From assembly GCA_015485385.1 (NCBI GenBank), contig WFTS01000040.1, forward strand, positions 1 to 42,069: 42,069 bases of DNA, given 5' to 3'. The stretch comes from Kordiimonadales bacterium. GTDB lineage: Bacteria; Pseudomonadota; Alphaproteobacteria; Sphingomonadales; Kordiimonadaceae. Below the pieces are notes generated by a model. The model was not told the origin of the DNA and did no database searches. It worked only from the letters and a program-made list of their open reading frames with translations. This document shows, one piece after another, positions 20,022-37,807 of this stretch. Each line of letters begins with the position of its first letter. The stretch's first letter is position 1. The position numbers were made by a program, and so were the translations under genes.

Positions 20022-21347
20022 TTAGCGTGTAACCGGACTAATGGCGGTGCCCTGAAACAAATGAACCCCAAGCCTGTGCCCAAAATCCACCTGCTGCGCA
20101 CTATTGCAGCCGCTTAGAATAACACGCGCAGTACCGATCTGTGTGATCCGCTGACGAAGCGCATCTTCTGTGGCTGTATCTAACCATTTGTCCATATTGG
20201 TGTCTGGCAGCTTTAATTTCACAAAATCAGCATCAAAATTTCTATAATCCAGCCACAGCAAAGCCCGGGGGTCTAGCCCGCCGATCATCACCCTGTATCC
20301 CAGTGTCTCCATTTTTTCCTGAACGCTGTGATACGCCCCGAAATTTGCCATCACATCTATAATGCCAAATTCAAGAATAATGGTGGAGCGCGGCTGCGCG
20401 CCTAAAGAGCGGTCAAAGCGATCAAATGCCGGGCTATCAAGCGCGGCTGCGGCACTGATATGAAGGCTAGAGGCAATGAAATTATCATTTTGCATATTAG
20501 GCGTGGCATAAAGAACCCGGCTTGCCAGCAAGTCTTTCAAATAGCCCTTCAGCCAACGATTTTGGCTGTAAACCTGCGAATCCATTAATTTATCGAAGAT
20601 CACAGCTGTTGGGACAAACCTGTGCACCATCACCGGCTGCGGCTGTTGATCCCCAATGATAGCCATCACCTGTTGACGCCGTAGCATACTGCTAACATCG
20701 GCCCCCAACAGCGCTTTATTTAGGGCAACAATCAGTTCTGGATCCAATTCCCGTTGCTGAATTTCATAGCGAGGGGCTTCGATTGGAACCATGCGAATCG
20801 TTGATTTTTTGGCCTTCTTTTTCTTATCAGGCTTGGGCTTTAAATTGCTTTTCAACTCTGCTTCTTGCAGCGAAGTTGCCTGTGATATCAGCTCAGATGC
20901 TAGGGCTGATGGCGCTGTCTCTGTGGTTCCTTGGGCAATATCGTCTGCCAGCTGTTCAATATATTTTCGAAAGCCGGGATAATCTTCTTCAATCTCAAAC
21001 CATGAAACAAAAAGATCGCTTTCTCCTTGAACCGGATCCAGCTTTTGTATCAGGGCCGAGTCGCGAAATTTGCGCCGAATATGATTCAAAAGCGGGTCTA
21101 TCGATTCTACCCTTGCGTCCTTTACGATCAGCACAACATCATTGTTTGGCAAAGCAAACATGGTTGCCCCAAAATTCGTAATCAAGCTTCTAAGGGTTAC
21201 AGCCACAAAGCGCCGATAATGTTCTTCGCGAAAATGTTTTTCTAAGCGCGACAGGTGCACATGAATGGCCCTTCGGCCTTGGGCATGCAGGCGCAGTTGC
21301 CGAACATAATCGACCATTTCATCAACGGATTTCATATCTTTTGACAC
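20022..21347 (-). CDS. Degenerate GGDEF/EAL-like cytoplasmic protein
   Basis: I do not recognise a named family. The 441-aa protein has no signal peptide or membrane helix. The N-terminal part (about 10-150, with RFVAVTLRSLITNFGATMFA and NDVVLIVKDARVESIDPLL) resembles a nucleotidyl-cyclase-like fold without GGDEF. A Lys-rich linker (KPKPDKKKKAKK) follows. The C-terminal part ends DFVKLKLPD ... ARVILSGCNSAQQVDFGHRL then GVHLFQGTAISPV, which matches the last strands of EAL domains (VKI-AEGVE-xxxxLxxLGxxxxQGxxxxxP). EAL, the DD pair and the catalytic glutamates are missing, so it should not hydrolyse c-di-GMP. It could be a c-di-GMP receptor or a scaffold. The start is GTG with AAGGTG 9 bases upstream. 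Confidence 0.6.
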   Translation of the reverse strand: MSKDMKSVDEMVDYVRQLRLHAQGRRAIHVHLSRLEKHFREEHYRRFVAVTLRSLITNFGATMFALPNNDVVLIVKDARVESIDPLLNHIRRKFRDSALIQKLDPVQGESDLFVSWFEIEEDYPGFRKYIEQLADDIAQGTTETAPSALASELISQATSLQEAELKSNLKPKPDKKKKAKKSTIRMVPIEAPRYEIQQRELDPELIVALNKALLGADVSSMLRRQQVMAIIGDQQPQPVMVHRFVPTAVIFDKLMDSQVYSQNRWLKGYLKDLLASRVLYATPNMQNDNFIASSLHISAAAALDSPAFDRFDRSLGAQPRSTIILEFGIIDVMANFGAYHSVQEKMETLGYRVMIGGLDPRALLWLDYRNFDADFVKLKLPDTNMDKWLDTATEDALRQRITQIGTARVILSGCNSAQQVDFGHRLGVHLFQGTAISPVTR

Positions 21348-21415
21348 TTAGCGCAACACCTTACTTGAAACTATCATTCTCAATATTTTAAACGATAGCT
21401 CTTAATTTTTTGGCT

Positions 21416-22183
21416 TCATCTCGCAGAATATTTTCTTCTTTTGTGCAACCACCAGCCCGTTTCATTGATCGAATAAACCGGCCGATAATGCAGTATCTTT
21501 GTATCAGACAACACCGCATCCACTTGGTTGTCGAGAATGAGATATTCATCCCCAACCCTGACAGCAAGCACCGCGTGAGCCGCACGCAAGTTTTCATCCT
21601 GCAAAACAACAATACGCATCGTATCTGCCGCTACGCCCAAGCGTTTCAGGGTAATATATTTGCTGATTGCATAGTCTTCACAGTCCCCGTCCCGAAGAAA
21701 AAATTCGTCTGGAGTTTCCCAATAATCTGGAATACCCCAATTGATTGGATCCAGAATATATGTGGTCCGATTCATAAAACGGTTCACGGCGCGAATAACT
21801 GTGTCCTTAGGCTTACCGCTTTGCTCGGCGATAAATTTATCCCATTCCGCGCGCCCACAAACAGCACGGCCTTGAACGCGGCATTTTTTGGCCCTGACTT
21901 CTGGGTCTATATCAAGGTCTTTCGCTGGCGTGCGAGGCAGATTTTGCCGTCGCCACATATCCGCCCATTTTGCAAAAGAGCGTTTGCCCCTAGACCTGAT
22001 TTCCATGCTGGAAAAAAGCTTAATTTTCTTTGGAGCAACAACAGCTGCCACTTCAGGTGTGCTTTCAGGAGCGCTGTTGGAAGTCGACTTGCTTGTCGCC
22101 GCTTGTGCAGCCTCTAGGACGTCCAAGGGCCATACAAGCACTGTTGCCCCGAATAAAATATACAAGCCTTTTTTACGCAACAT
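21416..22183 (-). CDS. Periplasmic transglutaminase-like cysteine protease (BTLCP/LapG-type)
   Basis: The 255-aa protein starts MLRKKGLYILFGATVLVWPL with a signal peptide ending near AQAA. The BTLCP catalytic triad is visible: Cys in DGDCEDYAISKYITLKRLGV, His in AAHAVLAVRVGDEYLILD, and Asp in LDNQVDAVLSD. The late motif YRPVYSINETGWW is also typical. LapG in Pseudomonas cleaves the adhesin LapA and is held by the c-di-GMP receptor LapD. No large RTX adhesin or LapD is in this window. The start at 22183 has AAGGA just upstream; TTG at 22204 is the alternative. It follows the HD-GYP gene divergently and precedes the EAL-like gene on the same strand. Confidence 0.85.
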   Translation of the reverse strand: MLRKKGLYILFGATVLVWPLDVLEAAQAATSKSTSNSAPESTPEVAAVVAPKKIKLFSSMEIRSRGKRSFAKWADMWRRQNLPRTPAKDLDIDPEVRAKKCRVQGRAVCGRAEWDKFIAEQSGKPKDTVIRAVNRFMNRTTYILDPINWGIPDYWETPDEFFLRDGDCEDYAISKYITLKRLGVAADTMRIVVLQDENLRAAHAVLAVRVGDEYLILDNQVDAVLSDTKILHYRPVYSINETGWWLHKRRKYSAR

Positions 22184-22336
22184 ATTTCCTTGGTCAGATT
22201 TCAATTGAGCCTAAGCGAATATTGTACCAACATAAGAGGCAAACCTTAACGATCCAAGGTATCTTCTAACATATTTGCCCAAAAATCGGCAGATAGACGT
22301 AACAACAAGCCGCGCGGGCCACTAAAGGAAACCCTG

Positions 22337-25644: not shown

Positions 25645-27471
25645 GTGCAGCAGGCGCAAGTGCAACAGCTTTTACAACAAGGGGGCAGCGCCTTTGGCCA
25701 AGGCAACCTGCAGCTGGCGGAAAAATGTTGCACTGCGGTTCTTGAGACATTCCCAAAAGAAGCAAACGCCCTTCATCTGCGCGCCCTGATTTACAAAAAA
25801 TCTAACCGCCCACAAGAGGCCGCCCTTACTTTTCGTTCAGCACAAAAAGCAGCTCCAAACAATGCTGAAATAGCGAATAACTTTGGTAATTTATTGCGGG
25901 AAACCGGCGACAATGCAGGGGCTATCAACCAGTATGACAAAGCTATAGCCAGCAATTCAAAATTTGCAGAGCCCTGGTTCAACAAGGGGCTTACCCTTCA
26001 GTCAACAGGGAACCATAATGAAGCGCTGGTAGCATTTGAAAAGGCGGCAAAACTTAAACCAAACGATGCCCGATTTGGAAATGCCGCTGGATTATCCCTC
26101 AAAGAATTAGGCCGGCTAGACGAGGCGGTTGAAGCCTATAAGCAAACGCTTGAAATCAATCCGAACCATTATCGGGCGCTTCATAATTTAGGGACAACAT
26201 TACGCTTACAAGACCGGCAAAGCGAGGCGCTCACTTATATCGAAAAGGCGATAAAACTAGAACCCCGCCTTGCCGAGCTTCGGTATAATTTAGCCAATAA
26301 TTTATATGATCTGGGCCACCATGAGCAAGCCGACGAAGAATACCGCCGCGCTATTGCTTTAAAACCGGATTATCTGGACGCCCATGAGACCCTCAATCAA
26401 ATGTATTGGGAGCACGGAAAACGCGACCTATTTGCCAAATCCTATACAGTTGGCATCAAGCAAGTGCCGATGTCCGCACCGCTTCGGGATGCCCATATCA
26501 AGGCTCTTGAATTGGCTGGGGATGTGGAAGGCGCAAATGAAGCACTTGATGCTGCGCTGGCTGATGTGGGGGCTGACGCAATCCTATTAAGGCGAAAAGC
26601 CCGCCTAGTTTCCGAGGTCGGCGATATGGACGCGGCCGTTCACTATTTTGAAAAAGCTGTTGAATCTGGCCCCGATAAAAAGCCAATCCGCATAGATTTT
26701 GCCCAAATTTTAATTCAACTCGGACGTTATGAGGATGCCCTTGCACACCTTGATGCCGCTGAAGCGCAGTCCCCGAATGACCAAGAAATGTGGGCTTTGC
26801 GTGGGCTTTGCTGGCGCCTTCTCGGTGATAAGCGCGAAAGTTGGCTTAACGACTATGACACATTTGTGCAACCTCGCCGCATCGAAACACCGCAAGGCTA
26901 TGATAATATTGAAGAATTTCTGTCTGAACTTAGCAGAGCTGTGTGCGCCATGCATGTCACACAAGTCCGGCCATTAGAACAAACCCTGCGCGGCGGCACG
27001 CAGACCCCTGGTCGTTTGTTTTTTCGGCCAGTCCCCATCATTCAAACACTAAAGCAGCAGCTTGAAAAAGAAATCTCTGCCTATATTGCTGCCATGCCTG
27101 ACGATAGTGACCACCCATTATTAAGCCGCAAACGGGCCAACTTTAAATTTACAGGCTCATGGTCGGTGCGGTTAAGCAAAGACGGCTTTCATGTCAATCA
27201 CATCCACCCTGCGGGCTGGATCTCTAGTGCCTTTTATGTCGAAGTGCCGCCATGCCTATCTGAAACCGACTATAGCAAAGGCAACCAAGGATGGATCAAG
27301 TTTGGTGAGAGCGGCCTGTCTTTAGGGCCAGAGCGCGAAGTGATACGAAAACTGGTCAAGCCAGAACCGGGTATGCTTGCACTATTTCCATCCTATGTTT
27401 GGCATGGAACCATCCCTTTCAGTGATGATGCAACACGGATAACAACACCGTTCGACGTCGTACCGGACTGA
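25645..27471 (+). CDS. TPR protein with C-terminal 2-oxoglutarate/Fe(II) oxygenase domain
   Basis: The 608-aa protein has about ten TPR units (residues 5-400). Clear ones are AEIANNFGNLLRETGDNAGA, WFNKGLTLQSTGNHNEALVA and RALHNLGTTLRLQDRQSEAL. A 2OG-FeII_Oxy_5-type domain follows (about 490-605). Iron ligands are suggested in GFHVNHIHPAGWISSAFYVE and VWHGTIPFSDDATRITTPFD, where the last Arg would hold 2-oxoglutarate. The start is GTG with GGAG 7 bases upstream. Fused TPRs usually grip a protein substrate, so it may hydroxylate a protein or peptide. The codons for its last residues and stop are followed by a near-copy of themselves (27474-27491). Confidence 0.85.
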   Translation: MQQAQVQQLLQQGGSAFGQGNLQLAEKCCTAVLETFPKEANALHLRALIYKKSNRPQEAALTFRSAQKAAPNNAEIANNFGNLLRETGDNAGAINQYDKAIASNSKFAEPWFNKGLTLQSTGNHNEALVAFEKAAKLKPNDARFGNAAGLSLKELGRLDEAVEAYKQTLEINPNHYRALHNLGTTLRLQDRQSEALTYIEKAIKLEPRLAELRYNLANNLYDLGHHEQADEEYRRAIALKPDYLDAHETLNQMYWEHGKRDLFAKSYTVGIKQVPMSAPLRDAHIKALELAGDVEGANEALDAALADVGADAILLRRKARLVSEVGDMDAAVHYFEKAVESGPDKKPIRIDFAQILIQLGRYEDALAHLDAAEAQSPNDQEMWALRGLCWRLLGDKRESWLNDYDTFVQPRRIETPQGYDNIEEFLSELSRAVCAMHVTQVRPLEQTLRGGTQTPGRLFFRPVPIIQTLKQQLEKEISAYIAAMPDDSDHPLLSRKRANFKFTGSWSVRLSKDGFHVNHIHPAGWISSAFYVEVPPCLSETDYSKGNQGWIKFGESGLSLGPEREVIRKLVKPEPGMLALFPSYVWHGTIPFSDDATRITTPFDVVPD

Positions 27472-27491
27472 TTGACGACGTACCGGACTGA
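27454..27491 (+). repeat. Tandem 18-bp duplication spanning a stop codon
   Basis: GACGTCGTACCGGACTGA (27454-27471, the oxygenase C-terminus and stop) is repeated as GACGACGTACCGGACTGA (27474-27491) with one mismatch and a 20-bp period. The second copy lies downstream of the stop and is not translated in frame. Confidence 0.85.
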
Positions 27492-27539
27492 CAAAAAAGA
27501 TTGGGAAGGGCGCAACCACGCAGTGACGGAGGCATACCC

Positions 27540-28253
27540 CTATTTATACCGAAACCACCCCGTTATCGCATATCGGTGCCCGGCCGCATAATCCGCCACA
27601 TAACTCACCGCATGATTTTGCGGTACTGTGAAAACATTCAAGGCATTAAAGCGCGGCAATAGGGCATCGGTTACGTCCCAATTTTGATTGTAAAATTGCA
27701 GCAACCCGCCCCAATCTGGGTCCCACTTTGGGGTGAAATTAAAAACAAAGGCTGCAACCCGGTATTCCTCGGTAACGTCGTCTGTATGAAATTTCAAAAA
27801 TTGCCCCGGACCATATCGTGTGGCTTGTGCATCGCCTTTGATAATATCAGGCCGCCCCGTAAGCTTGCGAACAAAATCCAGTACCGTAGGCGAGTTGATG
27901 AAATCCAGAAATCGGTCCAGAGATGGCACTTGGCCCCAACCCTGCAAATAAGCGTCCAACATAGGGTAGCAATCATAAGAATATTGAAACCCGTTAGCGG
28001 CTTGCTCGTTAACTTGAACCAAAATCGCGTCACGTTGGTCTTTGCTCATTGCGGCCCAATCCTCGGCCCTATGAAACTTAGGGCCGCCGTCGCTGTAGGC
28101 AAAGCCCCACGGTATTTCTCTGGTTAAAACATTATAGAGGCGTTCGGCACTTTCCGGGGCTAAGATAGCCGGGATATGTAACCGTTTCTTCTCAGAATAT
28201 GCCGCTGCAAGTGCAGAAATATCAAGGGCTGAGTTCAATTGAAAATCAGACAT
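27540..28253 (-). CDS. 2-oxoglutarate/Fe(II)-dependent oxygenase (prolyl-hydroxylase-like)
   Basis: This is a 237-aa stand-alone dioxygenase. The HxD motif is in GPGQFLKFHTDDVTEEYRVA, the distal iron histidine is in VPQNHAVSYV, and the 2-oxoglutarate arginine is in GHRYAITGWFRY. The layout matches the P4H/Tpa1-like group, which hydroxylates prolyl residues in proteins. It is encoded opposite to its neighbours, between two TPR-fused enzymes. The substrate is unknown, and small-molecule oxidation cannot be excluded. Confidence 0.85.
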   Translation of the reverse strand: MSDFQLNSALDISALAAAYSEKKRLHIPAILAPESAERLYNVLTREIPWGFAYSDGGPKFHRAEDWAAMSKDQRDAILVQVNEQAANGFQYSYDCYPMLDAYLQGWGQVPSLDRFLDFINSPTVLDFVRKLTGRPDIIKGDAQATRYGPGQFLKFHTDDVTEEYRVAAFVFNFTPKWDPDWGGLLQFYNQNWDVTDALLPRFNALNVFTVPQNHAVSYVADYAAGHRYAITGWFRYK

Positions 28254-28323
28254 AAGCCTATGGTCCTATTTTGCCAACGCGTTGGGCTTTTATTTACCCT
28301 ATGGCTACTGTAGAAAGAGCCTT

Positions 28324-28452
28324 ATGAAAATGCCAGAAAATAGCCATCAAATTACATGTTATGTCCGTCGGTGCGGCACGGCCCTTCTTGCCATTGACGC
28401 TACAAAAAATTTGAAGCGGATCAGTAACACCACTTGTTTGATCGCTGTATGA
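28324..28452 (+). CDS. Possible 42-aa small ORF coupled to the TPR-sulfotransferase gene
   Basis: The reading frame MKMPENSHQITCYVRRCGTA... ends ...NTTCLIAV. Its stop overlaps the next gene's ATG at 28449 as ATGA, the arrangement expected for translational coupling. It has three cysteines and no strong Shine-Dalgarno, only AGAG before the ATG. It could be a leader peptide, a small substrate peptide or chance. I do not recognise a family. Confidence 0.2.
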   Translation: MKMPENSHQITCYVRRCGTALLAIDATKNLKRISNTTCLIAV

Positions 28453-30329
28453 CCCTAGCAAGTCCACATACAGCCACTCTAGAGGCAGCCGAGGCCCATC
28501 ACCGCAACGGGCGCCTTGAGGAAGCCCAAACACAGTATCACGCCATTTTAAAAATAGTGCCTGACAGTGCCGACGCGCACTATGGTTTGGGTACGGTTTT
28601 GGTCCAAAACGGCAAGATGGATCAAGCGCTTTCCCATTTAGAAAAAGCTGTGGCCTTAGACCCTAACGTGCCTGAATTTCTGTTTAATCTGGCTCTGGTC
28701 GAACAGCAATTGGGCCTAATTAGCCGTGCGGCGCAGTCTTTGGAAAAAGCAGGGGCCGCAGCCCAAAATGACTTATATTTTCTCATCCCGATTTGCAAAA
28801 AATTGGTCGAAATCCGCCAACCACACACAGCGTTGCATTATTTACAAGCAACCGGTTCTCATGACCCTAAAGTGATGTTTTTGATTGCCCGAGCAAGGGC
28901 GTTTTGCGGAGATTTAGAGCGCGCCCTTGACGATTTTAATCAGCTGATCCAGCGGTTTCCAAATGACATGGCCCTTCGGCGCGAACATGCACGCGCGGCC
29001 GCGCTTATCCGGGACTATGATACGGCTATCCAGTCCTATCAGGCGTATTTGAAAAAACCTGACGCAAATGCCGACGACTTTCTTGGTCTTGCAGACCTTT
29101 ATTTGACAGCCCACAAGCCATCATTGGCCAAAGACGCGCTGGCGCAGTTTTTTAAATTGGGCGGCGTCCAAGCGGATGCCTATTTGATTGCAGCCAAATG
29201 CGCGCGCCTTGAAAACAATCATGAAGCCCTCAGACAAAATATTGATAAAACCATAGAGCTTCAGCCGACATCAGGCCAAGCTTGGCATTTCCGAATGGAA
29301 ACCGCAGAGCAAGAAAACCTGCCTGACATTGCCAAAAGCTGCATACGTCTTGCCGCAGATCCGGCCTGTAGCCGCCGCGATGCCGTGCGCTTATATCTCT
29401 GTGCGGGCAAGGCCTATGAAATGATAGGCGACTATCAACCCGCGTTTGAGGCCTTATCAAAAGGTAACGCGCACCACCAAAATTTAATGGCCCAAGAGGG
29501 CGCACAATATGACCCAAATACCACTGCCGCCTATCATAAGGCTACTTTAGAAAGATACCCTTTAAACGCTATTTTCCCGACAAATACTGTGCCGCCCAAA
29601 CCAAACCAAACAAGGCCCTTGTTCATCTTAGGTATGCCACGCTCTGGCACGACATTAGTGGAAAAAATGTTAGCCACATGGGATAATATTGAAGCAGGCG
29701 GCGAGAATGAAGCCATAGAATTTATTGCACAGCGCTATTATTGGGACATCACAAAAAAACGGGCGGCGCTACCCTCTGCACTGGAGGTCAGCGCATTAGA
29801 AAAAATGGCCACACAATATTGGGCTCGCACCCCATCCAAAGCAGAAATTCTAACCGATAAAATGCCCCATAATTTTCGCCATATCGGACTAATTTGCCAA
29901 ATATTTCCTTCGGCACCTGTCCTCTATATGAAGCGCGACCCTATGGATGTGTGCCTCTCGATCTACAGTAGGCTGTTTCCTGATGGTCATCCCTATGCTT
30001 GCGACCTGAAGGCTATCGCTGATTTTTATGCGGCCAGCGACCGGCTTTTAGATCATTGGAAAAAGCTTTTCCCCGACAGAATATTAGAAGTTCAATATGA
30101 ACGACTAGTGGAAGACCCAAAAGCCGTAACCCGTGAAATAGCCTCTTTTTGTGGGCTACAGTGGCACAAACAATGCCTAGAGTTCCATAAGGCAAACAGC
30201 AGCAGCTTTACCTTCAGCGAACTTCAGGTTCGGCAACCTCTGAACAAAGATGGCCTTGGTCGATGGCAACAGTACGGCGCCCTATTGGACCCCCTTAGAC
30301 ATGCCCTGCAGAAGGCTGGCGTCTCATGA
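28449..30329 (+). CDS. TPR-containing sulfotransferase
   Basis: This is a 626-aa two-part protein. Residues 1-370 are TPR repeats, clearest in EAQTQYHAILKIVPDSADAH, YGLGTVLVQNGKMDQALSHL and PEFLFNLALVEQQLGLI. The C-terminal sulfotransferase (about 390-620) has the PAPS 5'-phosphosulfate loop FILGMPRSGTTLVEKML and the 3'-phosphate motif LYMKRDPMDVCLSIYSRL. Related TPR-sulfotransferases are often compared with tyrosylprotein sulfotransferase, but the acceptor here is unknown. The ATG at 28449 overlaps a short ORF's stop; TTG at 28434 is an alternative start. Its own stop overlaps the methyltransferase ATG (ATGA), so the two are coupled. Confidence 0.88.
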   Translation: MTLASPHTATLEAAEAHHRNGRLEEAQTQYHAILKIVPDSADAHYGLGTVLVQNGKMDQALSHLEKAVALDPNVPEFLFNLALVEQQLGLISRAAQSLEKAGAAAQNDLYFLIPICKKLVEIRQPHTALHYLQATGSHDPKVMFLIARARAFCGDLERALDDFNQLIQRFPNDMALRREHARAAALIRDYDTAIQSYQAYLKKPDANADDFLGLADLYLTAHKPSLAKDALAQFFKLGGVQADAYLIAAKCARLENNHEALRQNIDKTIELQPTSGQAWHFRMETAEQENLPDIAKSCIRLAADPACSRRDAVRLYLCAGKAYEMIGDYQPAFEALSKGNAHHQNLMAQEGAQYDPNTTAAYHKATLERYPLNAIFPTNTVPPKPNQTRPLFILGMPRSGTTLVEKMLATWDNIEAGGENEAIEFIAQRYYWDITKKRAALPSALEVSALEKMATQYWARTPSKAEILTDKMPHNFRHIGLICQIFPSAPVLYMKRDPMDVCLSIYSRLFPDGHPYACDLKAIADFYAASDRLLDHWKKLFPDRILEVQYERLVEDPKAVTREIASFCGLQWHKQCLEFHKANSSSFTFSELQVRQPLNKDGLGRWQQYGALLDPLRHALQKAGVS

Positions 30330-31264
30330 AACATGAACCAGAAATAGAGGCTTGGAGCCGGTACTGGGCAGCCAACAGGCTAGACAGCTGTATTTCTGGC
30401 CAAGGAATTGAAGACGAAGCAGATATCAATGCGCTGTGGGCTAGTTTCGTGCAGGATACGCCTGATAACAGCCGATTAATCGACCTAGCCGCTGGCAATG
30501 GGGCTGTATCAATACGGCTGTTAACTCAGGCGCAGGCGCACGGAAAAACCCTTGCTGTAGACGCGGTCGATCAAGCCATCATTGATCCTGCTCGCCACCT
30601 TAAAAATCACAGTGCAATTGCAGCGCAAATAATGTTTCACGCTGAAACAGACATCAGCGCCCTGCCCTTCAAGGAAGCAACCTTTGACGGGGCCGTATCC
30701 CAATTTGGATTTGAATATGCGCCCCAGAAAGCGGCTGCAAAAGAAATGCTGCGTATCTTAAAACCCGGCGCGCACTTTCAGCTATTGATCCACCATGCCA
30801 ACAGTGCGTTGGTGGCGCCGAATGTTCAAAAGATCACCTACATTACAGGGTTGCTTGCCAAAGGGGGGCCGGTTGAGGCCGCACACACGTATTTAACATC
30901 CCCGCCGGACAAACAAGCAGCAGCCTTAGAAGCTTTAGAGCAAATAGGCCAGCAAACATTGGCGGCTTATAGCGCACAACCGCCAGCCATCATTCAGGAA
31001 ATATTCGGTGCGATTTCACAATTGGTGCAGCGCTCTGACCTCAGATTTTCTGTGCGCGCGAAGGCCGCTGTTGATATGGAAGGCCGCTTGCGGGCAGAAG
31101 CCGAACGTATGCGCCAACTCGCTGCGGCGGCGCTGGATGCAGATCAAATCCGTTCACTGGGGGATAGGCTCAGCCAAGCGGGAGCAACAGAGCTGGCTAT
31201 AACGGAATTATACATTGGCACCGACAAAGCCCTTCTGGGCTGGCTTGTTTGCGGCAAAAAATAG
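30326..31264 (+). CDS. SAM-dependent methyltransferase (class I)
   Basis: The 312-aa protein has a Rossmann-type SAM-binding motif I (NSRLIDLAAGNGAVSIRLL, about residue 50), the acidic strand LAVDAVDQ, and motif IV-like FDGAVSQFGFEYAPQKAAAK with AKEMLRILKPGAHFQLLI. A helical C-terminal part (AEAERMRQLAAAALDADQIR) may recognise the substrate. It overlaps the TPR-sulfotransferase by 4 bases, so the methyl transfer is likely part of the same pathway, on the same or a related acceptor. No closer family could be assigned. Confidence 0.85.
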   Translation: MKHEPEIEAWSRYWAANRLDSCISGQGIEDEADINALWASFVQDTPDNSRLIDLAAGNGAVSIRLLTQAQAHGKTLAVDAVDQAIIDPARHLKNHSAIAAQIMFHAETDISALPFKEATFDGAVSQFGFEYAPQKAAAKEMLRILKPGAHFQLLIHHANSALVAPNVQKITYITGLLAKGGPVEAAHTYLTSPPDKQAAALEALEQIGQQTLAAYSAQPPAIIQEIFGAISQLVQRSDLRFSVRAKAAVDMEGRLRAEAERMRQLAAAALDADQIRSLGDRLSQAGATELAITELYIGTDKALLGWLVCGKK

Positions 31265-31393
31265 AGTAAAGCTCACACCCCTTAAAGCCTATCACACAGC
31301 AAAATGCAGACCCCATCAGCCTGCTATTGAGGACTGGTTTGTTCATGACACATTCCATTGTAAGCACAGCAATAACCCGGGCACTGAGGCCAT

Positions 31394-31423
31394 AAAAAAA
31401 CGGCGGGCACAAGGCCCGCCGTT
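31394..31423 (-). terminator. Intrinsic terminator of the TonB-dependent receptor gene
   Basis: On the minus strand, AACGGCGGGC and GCCCGCCGTT form a 10-bp stem around CTTGT, followed by a run of seven Ts. It lies 27 bases downstream of the receptor stop. Confidence 0.9.
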
Positions 31424-31449
31424 CTCAATTTGTTTGTTAAGCCCGAAGC

Positions 31450-34341
31450 TTAGAAGCGCAGACGTGAACCGATGAAGATACGAGTGCCAATGACATCATA
31501 TGTTTCAGGGAACGTGTTTGCTTGCTGCTGGCTATCACCAAGGAATGATGGCTTGTTATTGAACAAGTTACGCGCACCACCATAAACCTGAACTGTTTCA
31601 TCAATGTCATATGTGAATGACAGATCGAAATAGTTTTCAGCGCCAATGGATGGAACAACCAGGTCAGAAGCCGAGAGACCGTCATTAATGATCTGATCAT
31701 CCTGTACGCCATCAAGCCAACGCCAGTTCAAAGACATGGTCAAAGGACCGTTTGCCATTGTTGTACGCATGTTAAAGCGATTCTTAGGATCAGGGCGTCC
31801 ACAGATGTTACCATATTGGCCTTCACAATCCAGAACCGTACCAACCTGTAGATCAGGGATAGAGCTGTTGTTAATCACGCGTGTACCAACAAAGGCAATG
31901 CTAAGAGTAGACCCGCCTTCATAGAAACCGAAATCAACATCAGTTGTGTAGTTCCATGACAGATCGACACCAGAGGTTTTAACCTGACCAATGTTCGCGT
32001 TACCAGCAAACACTGTATCAACGTTACCATCTGGGCGACGTGTAATGGCCTTACAATAAAGCGAGTTCAAGTCCTGAACCGTGTTGTAGCAAATATCTAG
32101 GATATTATTTACACCGCCACCAAGTGTCGAAACAGCTTGGTCGATAGTGATGTCATAATAATCCACAGACATTGTGAAGCCAGGAAGTGCTGTAGGCGTG
32201 AACACTGCACCAACGGTGTATGTGTCAGACGATTCTTCAAACAGATCAGGGTTACCACCGAAGATGCCTTCGATTTGGCTGTTAGCCTGAGTGAAGTTAC
32301 CGGTCAAACCTGCTGGAACACCTTGCGCCTCACAAAGTGCGATCAAAGTAGCAGAAGGGTTCGCTGTTGAATCAGAACATGGGTCTGTTGCGCCAGGGAA
32401 ACCATTTGCATTACCTGCAAACAATTCAGCAACGTTTGGTGCACGCACCGCACGCTGATACTGAGCGCGGAAGCTAATGTCTTCGATCGGTGCCCAAGTT
32501 AGACCACCAGCATATGACCAAACTGATCCAGCTGTAGAATAATCAGAGATACGAGCCGCAACAGTAGCATCTAAGCTTTTTGCGCCAGGTACGTCAGATA
32601 ATAGTGGAATAGCAAGCTCGACAAAGCCTTCGTAAGAATCGTACCCACCAATAGTTGCTTCGCCAGCGTTAAAGCCAAGAACGTCACCGCTTGCGAGGAA
32701 CTCATCAGGGCGGAATGCTGAATTATCTTTACGGTATTCAACACCCATCGCAACGCCGATTTCACCAGCACCAGTAAGATCACCCAAAGAACCACTAACC
32801 AAGCCTTGGATATTCTGTGTCTGAATGAAAGTCACGTTAGACGCGCCAATATTTACGAAGTCAATTGCAGCTTGGCTGATATTGCCAGCACCAAAGATAT
32901 TCATTGGTGCACAACCGCTTGAAGCATCCTGACAAGACAGGCCATCATCTGTTACCAGTGCAGCCTGACGGAATTTAGTTTCCGCAACGTCATTGTTCAA
33001 CAGGTTTGTCGCGTCAACACGGGCAAAGCTGTATGAAACATCATATGACCAACCATCAGCGATATCGCCGTCAAAGCCAACCAAGAAACGATAACCGTTA
33101 CGTGTGTCAAGAGACTGACGTGAACCATTTTCAACCATACGGCGGCCAATGAATGGCAAGAACGCATTGTCGTTACCGTCAACGATGCCGTCACCATTTG
33201 TATCTGTACGAATGCCGTCGAGAGCTTGCTGAACGTCAGCAGCAAAGAATGGGCTGTCAGGGTTTACTTCAAGGCCACCAACAAATGCAGGCGTTGGAGC
33301 AAGTTCCTGAGGTACACGGTTAGATACGAATGTTGCATCTAGGTAGAAGCGTACATTGTCGCTCACTTGATAATGAGTCATCGCTGACATCATGAAGCGC
33401 TCTTGTGGCAACTGAAGGAAGTTATCAGGTGCATAGTTAAAGCGGTTTGCATTCGTAAATACAGCGCCAGAACCATCCTCATTAAAGCGACCAAGACGAT
33501 CGCCGTTTGGAAGAACCGGCCCGCCAAAGACGCGTGTACCAGGAATACCTGATGAACCACCGCCAAGAAGACCAGATTCTGAACCAAATGATGGGCCAGG
33601 TGTTTCAACCGAACCAAACGAGTCAGACAATGCAAATGTAGAGAAGTCGCGGTCGCCCTGGAACAAGGGTTCACGTTTCATATAGTTCGCATAAACTGTT
33701 ACGTTACCACGGCCATCAGCGAAGTTACCGCCAACGGTAGCGCTGACATTATATTTGTTCGCATCGCCTTTGGTTGTTGTATCAAACTGCGCGTCAAGCT
33801 CTAGACCTTCAAAGTCAGACTTCATCACGAAGTTTACAACGCCGCCAAGAGCGTCAGAACCATAAACAGCAGAAGCACCACCGGTCACAACTTCAACACG
33901 CTCGATAAGCGAAGAAGGAATGGTGTTCAAATCAACAACACCAGCCTGGTTAGATTGTAGATAACGGCGGCCGTTTACAAGAACGAGCGTACGAGACGCG
34001 CCTAAACCACGAAGGTTTACTGTCGCTGTACCGTTACCAGGGTTGTTTGATGATCCACCAAAACCCGGGATTGTTTGTGGCAAAGTGGCAAGCACCTGCT
34101 CAACGTTCTGCGCGCCCGTGAATTTGAATTCAGACGCATCAACAGTAGAGATCGGTGAAGGAGCTGACAGATCACGGCGTACAATGCGCGAACCTGTTAC
34201 TACTACTTCTTCAAATTCTTCTCCGTCAGTATCAGCATCTTGTGCTGATACACTAGTGGCTCCCAGCGCCAAGCTGGCGATCAAGGTTGCTGCGCTACCC
34301 AAAAGCGCGGAGCGGCGCAAATATTTAAATTCGTTCGACAC
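31450..34341 (-). CDS. TonB-dependent outer-membrane receptor
   Basis: The 963-aa protein has a signal peptide (ALLGSAATLIASLALGATSV, cleavage after SVSA near residue 33), a TonB-box-like acidic stretch EEVVVTGSRIVRR, and a plug with ATVNLRGLGASRTLVLVNGR and EVVTGGASAVYGSDALGGVV. A large beta-barrel ends in the aromatic signature GSRLRF. The start is GTG at 34341, chosen for GAGGA 8 bases upstream and for the signal peptide; a longer reading adds 41 unlikely residues. Codon choice looks biased (many cgt, ggt, gaa), as in highly expressed outer-membrane proteins. The ligand is unknown. It sits between TPR-fused modifying enzymes. Confidence 0.93.
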   Translation of the reverse strand: MSNEFKYLRRSALLGSAATLIASLALGATSVSAQDADTDGEEFEEVVVTGSRIVRRDLSAPSPISTVDASEFKFTGAQNVEQVLATLPQTIPGFGGSSNNPGNGTATVNLRGLGASRTLVLVNGRRYLQSNQAGVVDLNTIPSSLIERVEVVTGGASAVYGSDALGGVVNFVMKSDFEGLELDAQFDTTTKGDANKYNVSATVGGNFADGRGNVTVYANYMKREPLFQGDRDFSTFALSDSFGSVETPGPSFGSESGLLGGGSSGIPGTRVFGGPVLPNGDRLGRFNEDGSGAVFTNANRFNYAPDNFLQLPQERFMMSAMTHYQVSDNVRFYLDATFVSNRVPQELAPTPAFVGGLEVNPDSPFFAADVQQALDGIRTDTNGDGIVDGNDNAFLPFIGRRMVENGSRQSLDTRNGYRFLVGFDGDIADGWSYDVSYSFARVDATNLLNNDVAETKFRQAALVTDDGLSCQDASSGCAPMNIFGAGNISQAAIDFVNIGASNVTFIQTQNIQGLVSGSLGDLTGAGEIGVAMGVEYRKDNSAFRPDEFLASGDVLGFNAGEATIGGYDSYEGFVELAIPLLSDVPGAKSLDATVAARISDYSTAGSVWSYAGGLTWAPIEDISFRAQYQRAVRAPNVAELFAGNANGFPGATDPCSDSTANPSATLIALCEAQGVPAGLTGNFTQANSQIEGIFGGNPDLFEESSDTYTVGAVFTPTALPGFTMSVDYYDITIDQAVSTLGGGVNNILDICYNTVQDLNSLYCKAITRRPDGNVDTVFAGNANIGQVKTSGVDLSWNYTTDVDFGFYEGGSTLSIAFVGTRVINNSSIPDLQVGTVLDCEGQYGNICGRPDPKNRFNMRTTMANGPLTMSLNWRWLDGVQDDQIINDGLSASDLVVPSIGAENYFDLSFTYDIDETVQVYGGARNLFNNKPSFLGDSQQQANTFPETYDVIGTRIFIGSRLRF

Positions 34342-34872
34342 TTTGCGTTTCCTCTTTATTTGATTGTTAAAAAAACCGTCCCCCCAAGTATTGAGACAGC
34401 TACCGATTAACCCGACCCAGCCCTTGGTTGATATAAAATATCGACATCTTGGGGCAGCGCGCACCAGAGTTAAACCTAAGGTGTGTCAATTAAACCACAG
34501 CCATAAACCTCGGGATGCAGCCATTTTCAGGTGGAATTTCGGCCACTTAAGCAGCAAGAGACTGTTTCCATTGATGTTCGACGCATTCGCACAACCTCGC
34601 GCTGCAAAGTAACGGGAGACCCCTTTGTTTTCTTAACAATCGGAGGTATTTTACGAGAACATCACCTCGCTGGCCACTAGGGCAACACCACAGCCACCGC
34701 GACTCGTCCTTGAGACGCGGCAGCTTGCTTAGGTGGGAAACTATAAGTATTACCGTATAAATCATCAGCTACTTATGTGACAGTTTGCCGCGGAGCTCTA
34801 TGCGTTACCTCATCAAGGGCTTAGCCTCATAAAATATGAACTGCCCGCATATTGACCCTGTCTTGAAGGGAT
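34342..34872. other. 531-bp gene-free region before divergent receptor and TPR-hydroxylase genes
   Basis: This is a long leader and promoter region with no credible ORF. A minus-strand TTGACA hexamer (34484-34489) could be a receptor -35, but no convincing -10 follows at 16-18 bp. A candidate plus-strand promoter for the hydroxylase gene is listed separately. An isolated CGGAGG near 34640 is not followed by a start codon at a usable distance. The length suggests an extended regulated leader for the receptor. Confidence 0.6.
34725..34753 (+). promoter_or_regulatory. Candidate promoter for the TPR-dual-hydroxylase gene
   Basis: TTGCTT (34725-34730) and TATTAC (34748-34753) are separated by exactly 17 bases, about 120 bases before the ATG at 34873. 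Both hexamers are imperfect. Confidence 0.3.
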
Positions 34873-37488
34873 ATGGATTTAGATATGACCAACATCGAAA
34901 CCCTGCAAGAAAAGGCCCGGTCCCTGCAAGCACAAGGGCAAATGGCCGCCGCAGAAAAAATTCATTGGGAAATCGTCGAACTGAATGCTGCCGCCCTTGG
35001 TTCATGGCAATTCCTAAGTGCCCGCGCAGCAGGCAGAAAAGATTACCAAGCGGCGGCTCAGGCGATCCAAAACTATTTGAAAATTGATACGCTCTCGGCG
35101 CAGGCATGGCAGGGTTTGGGTATCAACTTAATGCACACCAAGCAATTCACTGAGGCGCTGGATGCTTTCAAAGAAGCCGTGACACTTCAACCTGGAAATC
35201 CGACCAATCTTCTATATCTGGCAGCTGCAGCACACCAGCTAAACAATATACAATTAACCACCGACTGCCTTTCCCTAGCCTTACAGCAAACACCAACAGC
35301 CTCCTTGGAAGGGCTTTCCGACAAAGCTGAACCGGTTTTGGCGGCCATATTGCGCGCCGCACCGACCTTGCTGGAAGACCATATTAAGAAGCTTACTCTG
35401 GTCGCAGGCCCCCTGACTGGCCACCTAAAAGGAGCCCACTGGAGAATGCACGAAAAAGCGGCCCCCGCTTGGGCAAAGCCCGACCAAAAACCTGAACGCT
35501 TTTTCTTGCCCAATCTCCCGGCCCAACCTTGGTTCGATGATAAGGATATCCCTTGGATCAAGGACATAGAAGCCGCTTATGATGATATCAAGCTTGAGGC
35601 AAACGCCGCCTTACCTATAGCAAGCGGCAGGCCTTATATAGGCTCACATATGGCTGAAAATCCACAGTGGGAAACTCTTGCGGGCAATCAAGATTGGAGT
35701 GCAGTACACCTTTATAATGGCGGCAAACCCGACCCGGAAATCGTCGCCAAATTCCCAAAGACACTCAAGGCGTTAGAAAAATTACCGCTCTGCCGGGTCG
35801 GGGAAGATCCGATCGAAATCTTCTTCAGCCTTCTGGCACCGGGCGCCCATATTGTGCCACATTACGGCACATCAAATGGACGCCTAACCGTTCATATGCC
35901 GATCACCCTAGAAGCTGGTAGTTGCAGCTTGCGCGCCGGTGATGAAACGCGGCTCATGAAAGCGGGAAAGATACTGGCATTCGATGATAGTTTCGACCAT
36001 GAGGCTCGAAACAGTGGTAATAGCCTCAGGATCAATTTGATCTTTGAGACATGGCACCCTGCCCTAACGAGCAAAGAGCAAAATCAATTATCAGCCATGT
36101 CTGAAGCTTATGATGCATGGTTTTCTGGACGCAGTCATCGTCTTGAATTTCTTGGCCTATCCCTAAGCGCCGCCGCAGAGGCTGACTATTATGTTATCGA
36201 GGCTCAGAAAGTTGCAAATAAAACACGGTCATGGGCCGCTGATGGACAAGCCGCACACTTACTTTCCCAAGCGCTTGAGATAAACCCACACCACAAAAAA
36301 GCTCTTAGCTTGATGGTGGATGTTGCGTTTGGGGCAGGGGACAATGCAAAGGGTCTTGGCTATTTGCGGCGGTTGGGAGCCCTTATGCCCAATCATGCGA
36401 GTATTCAGTATCGGCTCGCCAATGTGGAAGAACAAATCGGCGATGCGCAAGGGACCAGAACTGCCTATCTCCGCTGCTTACACGCCGACCCCACAAATAT
36501 GATGTCTTACTTGTATGCTGGATATTTTTTCGAACAACACGCCGCCAATAGCGAGGACAAAAACGCAACCCTCGATATTGCCGCCCAGCTTTATTCTATG
36601 GGACAAGATATCAGCAATCACCTAACCAACTTACATAGTGGTGCCTCGGCCAATCCTGAGACTCGCCGGCGATCAGCTTCCGCAGACGCATTGCTCGCGA
36701 AAACAACAGCGCGCCTTCACGCAGATGCGGTTGGAAAACGCGGCGGATGTATCAAAAGCGCCCTTTGGCCACAAAATTACTTAGGGACCGTGCCTTATCG
36801 TGACCCAGCGCAAAAACCCCATGTATTTTATATCCCCGAGATTAGGCCAATTCGCTTTATGGACCGCGCCGATATGAAGTGGGCCAACACAGTAGAGGCA
36901 GCCTTTGATGATATTAAATCTGAACTAATGGCCGTCCTAGACAGTGACAAACCCTTTGGGCGACCTTATCTGGATGCCAACATGCATCTGGGTAGTGCGT
37001 TTGACCCGATAAAAGGTACCATGAACTGGGTTGCCCTAGACCTGTTTCGAGATGGAATTGCCAACGAAGAAATGCTCTCTAAGTTCCCCAAAACACGGGC
37101 TGCCCTTAAAGCAGCACCGCTTGCCAGCTTTGGGGATGATCCGTTTGAAGTGTTTTTCTCACTGTTAAAACCTCATCAGCATATCCCCCCTCATTTTGGT
37201 CTGTCGAACCACGGCATTACCGTGCATCTGCCCATGATTGTGCCTGAAAACTGCAAAATTCGGGTCGATCAAGAATGGCGACGGTGGCGAGAAGGGGAAC
37301 TGATCGCTTTTGATGATGCTTTTGATCATGAAGCCATCAATGAAAGCGATCAATTGCGTGTTGTCTTGATATTCGAGGTCTGGCATCCAGACCTAAGCAA
37401 AGCCGAGCAAAATGCGATCAAACGCACCTTCAATGCGCGTGACATGTGGCTACAATCACGGCGCCTGCCGGTGTGCGATAACAATTAG
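34873..37488 (+). CDS. TPR protein with two aspartyl/asparaginyl beta-hydroxylase domains
   Basis: This 871-aa protein starts with TPR units (about 5-180, e.g. AQAWQGLGINLMHTKQFTEA). An AspH-type 2OG/Fe(II) domain (about 210-400), a helical TPR-like linker (440-560) and a second AspH domain (about 640-865) follow. Domain 1 has iron histidines H330 (VPHYGTSNGRLTVHMP) and H376 (FDDSFDHEA), and R386 for 2-oxoglutarate. Domain 2 has H774 (PPHFGLSNHGITVH), H819 (FDDAFDHEA) and R829. Both keep the Ser 11 residues before the first His (FFSLL). The Arg nine residues after it in human AspH is Thr in both. AspH enzymes hydroxylate Asp/Asn in cysteine-rich protein domains. The start may be ATG 34873 or ATG 34885. 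Confidence 0.85.
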   Translation: MDLDMTNIETLQEKARSLQAQGQMAAAEKIHWEIVELNAAALGSWQFLSARAAGRKDYQAAAQAIQNYLKIDTLSAQAWQGLGINLMHTKQFTEALDAFKEAVTLQPGNPTNLLYLAAAAHQLNNIQLTTDCLSLALQQTPTASLEGLSDKAEPVLAAILRAAPTLLEDHIKKLTLVAGPLTGHLKGAHWRMHEKAAPAWAKPDQKPERFFLPNLPAQPWFDDKDIPWIKDIEAAYDDIKLEANAALPIASGRPYIGSHMAENPQWETLAGNQDWSAVHLYNGGKPDPEIVAKFPKTLKALEKLPLCRVGEDPIEIFFSLLAPGAHIVPHYGTSNGRLTVHMPITLEAGSCSLRAGDETRLMKAGKILAFDDSFDHEARNSGNSLRINLIFETWHPALTSKEQNQLSAMSEAYDAWFSGRSHRLEFLGLSLSAAAEADYYVIEAQKVANKTRSWAADGQAAHLLSQALEINPHHKKALSLMVDVAFGAGDNAKGLGYLRRLGALMPNHASIQYRLANVEEQIGDAQGTRTAYLRCLHADPTNMMSYLYAGYFFEQHAANSEDKNATLDIAAQLYSMGQDISNHLTNLHSGASANPETRRRSASADALLAKTTARLHADAVGKRGGCIKSALWPQNYLGTVPYRDPAQKPHVFYIPEIRPIRFMDRADMKWANTVEAAFDDIKSELMAVLDSDKPFGRPYLDANMHLGSAFDPIKGTMNWVALDLFRDGIANEEMLSKFPKTRAALKAAPLASFGDDPFEVFFSLLKPHQHIPPHFGLSNHGITVHLPMIVPENCKIRVDQEWRRWREGELIAFDDAFDHEAINESDQLRVVLIFEVWHPDLSKAEQNAIKRTFNARDMWLQSRRLPVCDNN

Positions 37489-37546: not shown

Positions 37547-37577
37547 AAAAAACCGCGCCAGAGACATCTGAAGCAGT
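37547..37577 (-). terminator. Decayed terminator in repeat copy 1
   Basis: This copy keeps a run of six Ts and the CGCGG arm, but several substitutions weaken the stem compared with copies 2 and 3. Confidence 0.4.
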
Positions 37578-37618
37578 GTTTTGATGGCGCCCAGAGAGCC
37601 AAAAAACGGGTGCGGCAT

Positions 37619-37649
37619 AAAAAAACCGCGCCAGAAGCCTCTGGAGCGG
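37619..37649 (-). terminator. Intrinsic terminator in repeat copy 2
   Basis: On the minus strand, CCGCTCCAGA and TCTGGCGCGG pair (one mismatch) around GGCT, followed by seven Ts. Confidence 0.8.
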
Positions 37650-37691
37650 TGTTTTGATGGCGCCCAGAGAGCCAAAAAACGAGTGCGGCAT

Positions 37692-37722
37692 AAAAAAACC
37701 GCGCCAGAAGCCTCTGGAGCGG
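37692..37722 (-). terminator. Intrinsic terminator in repeat copy 3, next to tRNA-Arg
   Basis: The same hairpin and seven-T run as copy 2, starting 8 bases after the tRNA CCA end. This would be the first terminator met by the tRNA transcript. Confidence 0.85.
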
Positions 37723-37730
37723 TGTTTTGA

Positions 37731-37807
37731 TGGCGCACCGGGGAGGATTCGAACCCCCGGCCCCCAGATTCGTAGTCTGGTGCTCTATCCAGCTGAGCTA
37801 CCGGTGC
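37731..37807 (-). tRNA. tRNA-Arg (anticodon ACG)
   Basis: The 77-nt cloverleaf reads on the minus strand. The acceptor GCACCGG pairs with CCGGTGC. The D arm is GCTCAGCTGGATAGAGC. The anticodon stem CCAGA/TCTGG holds the loop CTACGAA (anticodon ACG, decoding CGN via inosine). The T arm GGGGGTTCGAATCCTCC follows, then discriminator G, and CCA is encoded. Terminator-bearing tandem repeats follow directly. Confidence 0.96.

Follow-up and report, generated by a model that had tools for sequence, protein, structure and literature searches.

Among described systems, those closest to the gene cluster reported here are the tyrosylprotein sulfotransferases TPST1 and TPST2 (human and tick), human AspH, RaxST of Xanthomonas oryzae, a bacterial tyrosine sulfotransferase (PMC4216712), and the methanobactin operons. 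The latter group a precursor and tailoring enzymes with a TonB-dependent receptor (TBDT), and in two cases include a PF00685 sulfotransferase for which the precursor peptide is the presumed substrate (PMC3621798). The cluster lies at positions 25645–37488 of contig WFTS01000040.1 (C40 in our numbering; 42,069 nucleotides, taken whole as the window) in the 2.97-Mb, 93% complete genome of a Kordiimonadales bacterium. It encodes a tetratricopeptide repeat (TPR) protein with a 2-oxoglutarate (2OG)-Fe(II) oxygenase domain (OGX5), a stand-alone 2OG-Fe(II) oxygenase (P4H), a TPR-sulfotransferase (ST), a methyltransferase (MT), a TBDT and a TPR-AspH protein. A first-pass annotation had placed five enzyme genes and the receptor within 12 kb, and the open reading frames and Pfam matches confirm all six genes, their coordinates and their domain identities. 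Conserved co-occurrence of these genes with the receptor in other genomes, on which that annotation had staked its proposal beforehand, is found in Alpha- and Gammaproteobacteria. The grouping is not due to chance, and our tentative reading is that the receptor and the protein-modifying enzymes of the cytosol form one functional module, in which the receptor would be modified before export.

The evidence for the grouping begins with a scan of named genomes, which returned at least 589 relatives of OGX5. Among the best 80 of these loci, a TBDT is present in 53, ST in 28, AspH in 22, MT in 14 and P4H in 13. A TBDT together with at least three enzyme families is seen in 24 of the 80, and all five families occur in three, from Thalassotalea eurytherma, T. 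loyana and an uncultured Pseudohongiella; the receptors of these three gammaproteobacterial loci are 53–56% identical to that of the window. When only OGX5 loci with long flanks are considered, 35/50 contain a TBDT, within 300 bases in 19/50. The same cluster, in a version that lacks MT, is carried by Kordiimonas sediminis (contig L148), which belongs to the same family as the window genome. The loci around ST (20), AspH (40) and P4H (19) were hand-picked down the match lists rather than drawn at random. For ST, taken from twenty genomes, a TBDT is present in 17/20 loci; where both flanks span 8 kb or more the count is 15/16, with the receptor within 300 bases in 12/16. The corresponding figure for AspH is 24/40. 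Loci in which the contig ends within 8 kb and no TBDT is seen were set aside (12/80 for OGX5, 2/20 for ST and 5/40 for AspH). The window genome itself holds four good TPR-ST matches. In the window, a single gene separates ST from the TBDT; each of the remaining three sits next to a TBDT, at a distance of about 40–260 bases. Plug domains are matched 23 times across the 2.97 Mb (22 matches exceed the cut-off), so that a random gene would rarely adjoin a TBDT. A weaker ST match that lacks TPRs, on contig C41, has no recognized TBDT within the 13 kb read. Finally, loci of the window receptor clade keep their gene content but differ in the order and strand of the genes, and hitchhiking as the sole cause of the grouping was therefore rejected.

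The receptor gene (31450–34464, minus strand) encodes a signal peptide followed by Plug (PF07715) and barrel (PF00593) domains, both over the Pfam cut-off (7e-24 and 7e-31). Translation probably starts at an internal GTG close to 34341, the point at which the signal peptide seen in related receptors begins. Relatives of 52–69% identity are found in Alpha- and Gammaproteobacteria, and in genomes from other families MT lies next to receptors of the window type. In a FastTree analysis of 50 receptors, with the one nearest OGX5 taken from each locus, the window receptor falls with full local support in a clade of 11, the loci of which contain P4H in 11/11, AspH in 9/11, and ST and MT in 7/11 each. 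On this tree the enzyme labels change 3 times for P4H, 9 for ST, 7 for MT and 9 for AspH, as compared to shuffled means of 11.5, 16.9, 12.4 and 16.7, and none of 500 shuffles is as low. In the OGX5 tree, the Pseudohongiella and L218 proteins lie far from those of the remaining window receptor clade, and there are hints, uncertain on such long branches, that this receptor clade recruited the OGX5 family more than once.

The association extends from loci to whole genomes. Across 246 genomes of the order, the receptor (at least 43% identity) is found in 47 and P4H in 67, with both in 38; the sample comprised 105 P4H rows, after the 11 weakest were dropped, and 75 receptor rows down to about E 1e-149. 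All 10 receptor rows of at least 50% identity come from genomes with P4H, and for 5/10 the distance to it is at most 20 kb. Where P4H and AspH lie elsewhere in the genome, OGX5 and/or MT still lie beside the receptor. Window-type AspH (E <1e-55) is present in 13 genomes and the receptor at 50% identity in 10, with both in 8, on different contigs in 7/8. Of five AspH loci read in such co-occurring genomes, two lie near rpsD (L070, L083), two near genes that by eye are of carboxylase type (L081, L082), and one (L047) next to MT and to the TPR portion of a gene resembling ST. A sample of 398 genomes of the phylum contains the receptor in 14, P4H in 15 and both in 8; the two genes are 0.6 to 6.1 kb apart in 7/8 and on different contigs in the other (G053). 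With the seven matched genomes of the window's own order removed, the counts are 8, 10 and 4, respectively (p 1.5e-5).

The ST gene (28434–30329, plus strand) encodes 631 amino acids with TPRs and a Sulfotransfer_3 domain (PF13469, Pfam 2e-44). In its predicted structure, the sulfotransferase domain is nearest to the tyrosylprotein sulfotransferases. It shares with TPST1 and TPST2 the predicted catalytic fold, the 3'-phosphoadenosine 5'-phosphosulfate (PAPS)-binding P-loop MPRSGTT, a DK motif and a GE motif that aligns with TPST GEE, the Glu of which we take to be the catalytic residue of TPST. The P-loop residues and the GE and DK motifs are kept in 15/15 rows, in which R403, G405, E424 and K476 are invariant. 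Unlike TPST1 and TPST2, ST is bacterial, shows no membrane anchor and is fused to a TPR arm; we regard it as a putative protein-tyrosine sulfotransferase. The window protein is matched in 228/246 genomes of the order, in some through the TPR part alone. The setting also differs from that of RaxST: the neighbors of raxST are type I secretion genes (PMC4216712), whereas ST lies with a TBDT and encodes TPRs. The ST gene shares a 4-base overlap with that of MT (30326–31264, plus strand; 312 amino acids), a predicted S-adenosylmethionine-dependent methyltransferase (Pfam about 3e-10) with weak best matches in the PDB (3e-5), among which LahSB is third (5e-5).

The TPR-AspH gene (34873–37488, plus strand; 871 amino acids) encodes a TPR and two PF05118 Asp_Arg_Hydrox domains (Pfam 2e-75). 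Human AspH, which likewise joins TPRs to a PF05118 domain, is the best PDB match (1.9e-27). H141, H187, S130 and R197 are invariant in 11 aligned rows, and both iron-site His residues are kept along with the Ser668 and Arg735 equivalents of the human enzyme, the numbering of which we take to be H679, H725, S668, R735 and R688. The window protein differs from human AspH in carrying two such domains per chain, in having a TBDT as neighbor and in the second 2OG-binding Arg (human R688), which is replaced by Thr in both domains. The first domain groups with two rpsD-linked relatives and the second with a mainly TBDT-linked set. TPR-AspH genes also lie near rpsD, for ribosomal protein S4, in L068, L069, L070, L083 and L105, mostly with what appears by eye to be a GNAT-type gene.

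The P4H gene (27540–28253, minus strand; 237 amino acids) matches PF13661 and PF13640 (Pfam 2e-20 and 2e-17) and contains the HxD...H motif and 2OG-binding Arg of a prolyl hydroxylase-type oxygenase, with H156xD158, H214 and R227 invariant in 15/15 aligned rows. The nearest solved chain is OGFOD1 (E 1e-4), followed by EGLN2 and a bacterial protein (0.035–0.04), so that protein prolyl hydroxylases are among the nearest chains at E 1e-4 and weaker. From its sequence, P4H looks like a prolyl hydroxylase-type enzyme. The OGX5 gene (25645–27471, plus strand; 608 amino acids) encodes TPRs and a C-terminal PF13759 domain (Pfam 9e-22), with a set of His residues that is invariant in 13 and in 34 aligned rows. 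The AlphaFold model (mean pLDDT 95.0, pTM 0.88) has a TPR arm similar to MamA and O-GlcNAc transferase (OGT) in a structure search, in which TPR proteins filled the match list, leaving the fold of the catalytic domain barely probed. In one genome of the same order (L092), three OGX5, two ST and one AspH frame lie on one strand ahead of a single TBDT. The OGX5 proteins of two contigs titled Anaerolineaceae and Verrucomicrobia (L208 and L197) are placed among proteobacterial rows, and these contigs are perhaps misbinned.

The predicted TPR arms resemble those of OGT, which together with the TPST-like fold of ST makes protein substrates likely. In this respect, the modification of a protein or peptide proposed in the first-pass annotation is favored by the structural predictions, while the tests for a modified site in the receptor sequence were negative or uninformative. 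No signal peptide is seen by eye in the enzymes, and they are therefore taken as cytosolic; the receptor has one. In the module that we propose tentatively, the TPR arms of OGX5, ST and AspH would hold the unfolded receptor precursor in the cytosol, where the oxygenases would hydroxylate chosen residues, Pro in the case of P4H and Asp or Asn in that of AspH. ST would sulfate Tyr with PAPS as the donor, and MT may add a methyl group. The modified receptor would then be exported by Sec and inserted into the outer membrane, with the modifications tuning ligand recognition or gating. We put forward somewhat more guardedly the wider claim that up to five cytosolic enzymes modify a TBDT before export, such that one receptor gene could give chemically distinct receptors, with enzyme sets that differ by receptor clade, and that such systems are widespread in Alpha- and Gammaproteobacteria.

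The receptor is the only exported protein to remain with the enzymes. A search for a small precursor reading frame (18–110 codons, outside larger genes) found none common to more than three of 12 window-clade loci, and the groups that reach three loci are upstream genes of the close relatives L155, L159 and L225. The association and the lack of another candidate point to the receptor as the best candidate substrate, at the same tentative level as the module as a whole. In Mantel comparisons of enzyme distances with those of the adjoining receptors, the correlations for ST (r 0.31) and AspH (r 0.70) lie above all 2000 shuffles.

Several observations weigh against the receptor as part of such a module. 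The Mantel distances carry no control for species descent, and the value for OGX5 (r 0.19) does not exceed the shuffles. The Fisher tests on genome counts likewise ignore shared ancestry, the identity and E-value thresholds were set after the tables had been viewed, and no more than a few candidates were scored in each genome searched. No TBDT is visible in 27/80 OGX5 loci, although 12 of these end within 8 kb, and one OGX5 clade of 10 rows is without any TBDT. Around good P4H matches only 4/19 loci contain a TBDT, with some of the contigs short. For AspH, several of the closest relatives have a GNAT gene and rpsD nearby instead of a TBDT. Within the receptor alignment, no clade-specific residue column tracks an enzyme. 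The plug residue Pro149 (SNNPG) was rejected as the P4H site, as it is found in 17/17 P4H-clade receptors but is shared by relatives that lack P4H. Tyr is not specially conserved, and none of its positions is exclusive to ST-linked receptors. Two other Pro sites were tried as a mark of P4H and did not separate linked from unlinked receptors, and the share of Asn, Pro and Tyr among invariant receptor columns is not clearly special when compared with six other receptor sets. Inspection by eye of the signal peptide and N-terminus for a recognition motif revealed lineage-specific features only.

It is unlikely, yet deserving of weight, that the product of the enzymes is instead a modified peptide or small protein, which the cell would secrete and take up again through the TBDT. 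Methanobactin would be the best precedent by analogy, since its operons likewise group a TBDT with tailoring enzymes and, rarely, a sulfotransferase (PMC3621798). Near the cluster, a gene that is DUF692-like by eye is present in 5/80 loci, and a small Cys-rich gene lies beside it in L154, L167 and L221. Neither a precursor nor MbnB (DUF692) was found in the window cluster, however, and no DUF692 domain is present in its six proteins. The sulfotransferase is of another family than that of the methanobactin operons, and TPR enzymes and 2OG oxygenases take the place of their tailoring enzymes. The small-frame search described above, which would miss a precursor encoded at a distance from these loci, also speaks against a secreted product, and no exporter is seen by eye as a constant neighbor in the gene lists.

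We consider it distinctly improbable that the enzymes have as their substrate a small molecule, lipid or lipopolysaccharide, either as the receptor ligand or as a part of the surface. Sulfotransferases and 2OG enzymes often do act on small molecules, and the AspH domains match models of the ornithine-lipid hydroxylase OlsC and of LpxO, though well below the cut-offs (147.6/450 and 67.3/500 bits). A TBDT and cytosolic enzymes that act on its cargo are a common pairing in uptake clusters, and processing or detoxification of imported cargo would fit that pattern. By eye, no inner-membrane uptake transporter is consistently present, and the reactions expected of the TPR enzymes (sulfation, hydroxylation and methylation) do not suggest a degradative pathway; there is little chance that cargo processing explains the cluster. 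Finally, neighborhood inertia or chance among enzymes with unrelated substrates is very improbable because, while other settings exist (AspH near rpsD and, by eye, one OGX5 clade near ComM-like genes), content is kept as order and strand differ, and AspH and the receptor co-occur even on separate contigs.

Other genes recur around these receptors. Genes for SapC (PF07277), in a cluster drawn from 8 compared loci, were confirmed in four (L165:16582–17340, L220:11775–12563, L162:8979–9896 and L212:1107–1925), and a tryptophan halogenase (PF04820) in one (L143:16707–18224). Both may belong to the same modifying set, but neither is among the 20 window proteins scanned, and no paper on a cluster of SapC, halogenase and TBDT genes was found in titles and abstracts. 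In loci of Alteromonadales type, a DUF3450-ExbB-ExbD-TonB energizing operon adjoins or lies near the cluster, namely in L155 (17448–21171), where its domains were confirmed, and in L159, L205, L221 and L225. A small secreted protein is encoded near the receptor in 18 compared loci and is VasI-like in L072 (6553–7065; PF11319, E 4e-6). Near OGX5 and TBDT genes, a bufferin-like operon (L154:8083–9304, L167:8030–9242 and L221:17360–19418) contains, by eye, a Cys-rich EGKCGEGKCGGDK peptide and DUF692-like and DUF2063-like genes. Within the window, G+C content is level throughout, which led us to reject a genomic-island origin. A tRNA-Arg gene (37731–37807) lies just downstream of the cluster, with tandem 73-base units at 37547–37765 that contain terminator-like hairpins, the third copy running into the tRNA gene. 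At 20022–22204, a weak EAL-domain gene (below the cut-off) adjoins a BTLCP (C93) protease gene, in what we take to be a LapD/LapG-like arrangement.

We know of no account of dedicated enzymes that modify outer-membrane uptake receptors post-translationally, and a literature search, with most subscription papers and all bioRxiv preprints outside its scope, found no description of this gene combination. If the receptor is indeed modified, this would add an extra layer to the bacterial choice of nutrients, phages and toxins at the surface, would explain the frequent TPR-ST genes beside TBDTs, and would establish protein-tyrosine sulfation and protein hydroxylation as common and testable processes in bacteria. 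If the ligand is modified instead, the clusters would mark a large new class of modified peptides. What the conserved grouping suggests is that certain nutrient receptors undergo chemical modification before they are put to use.
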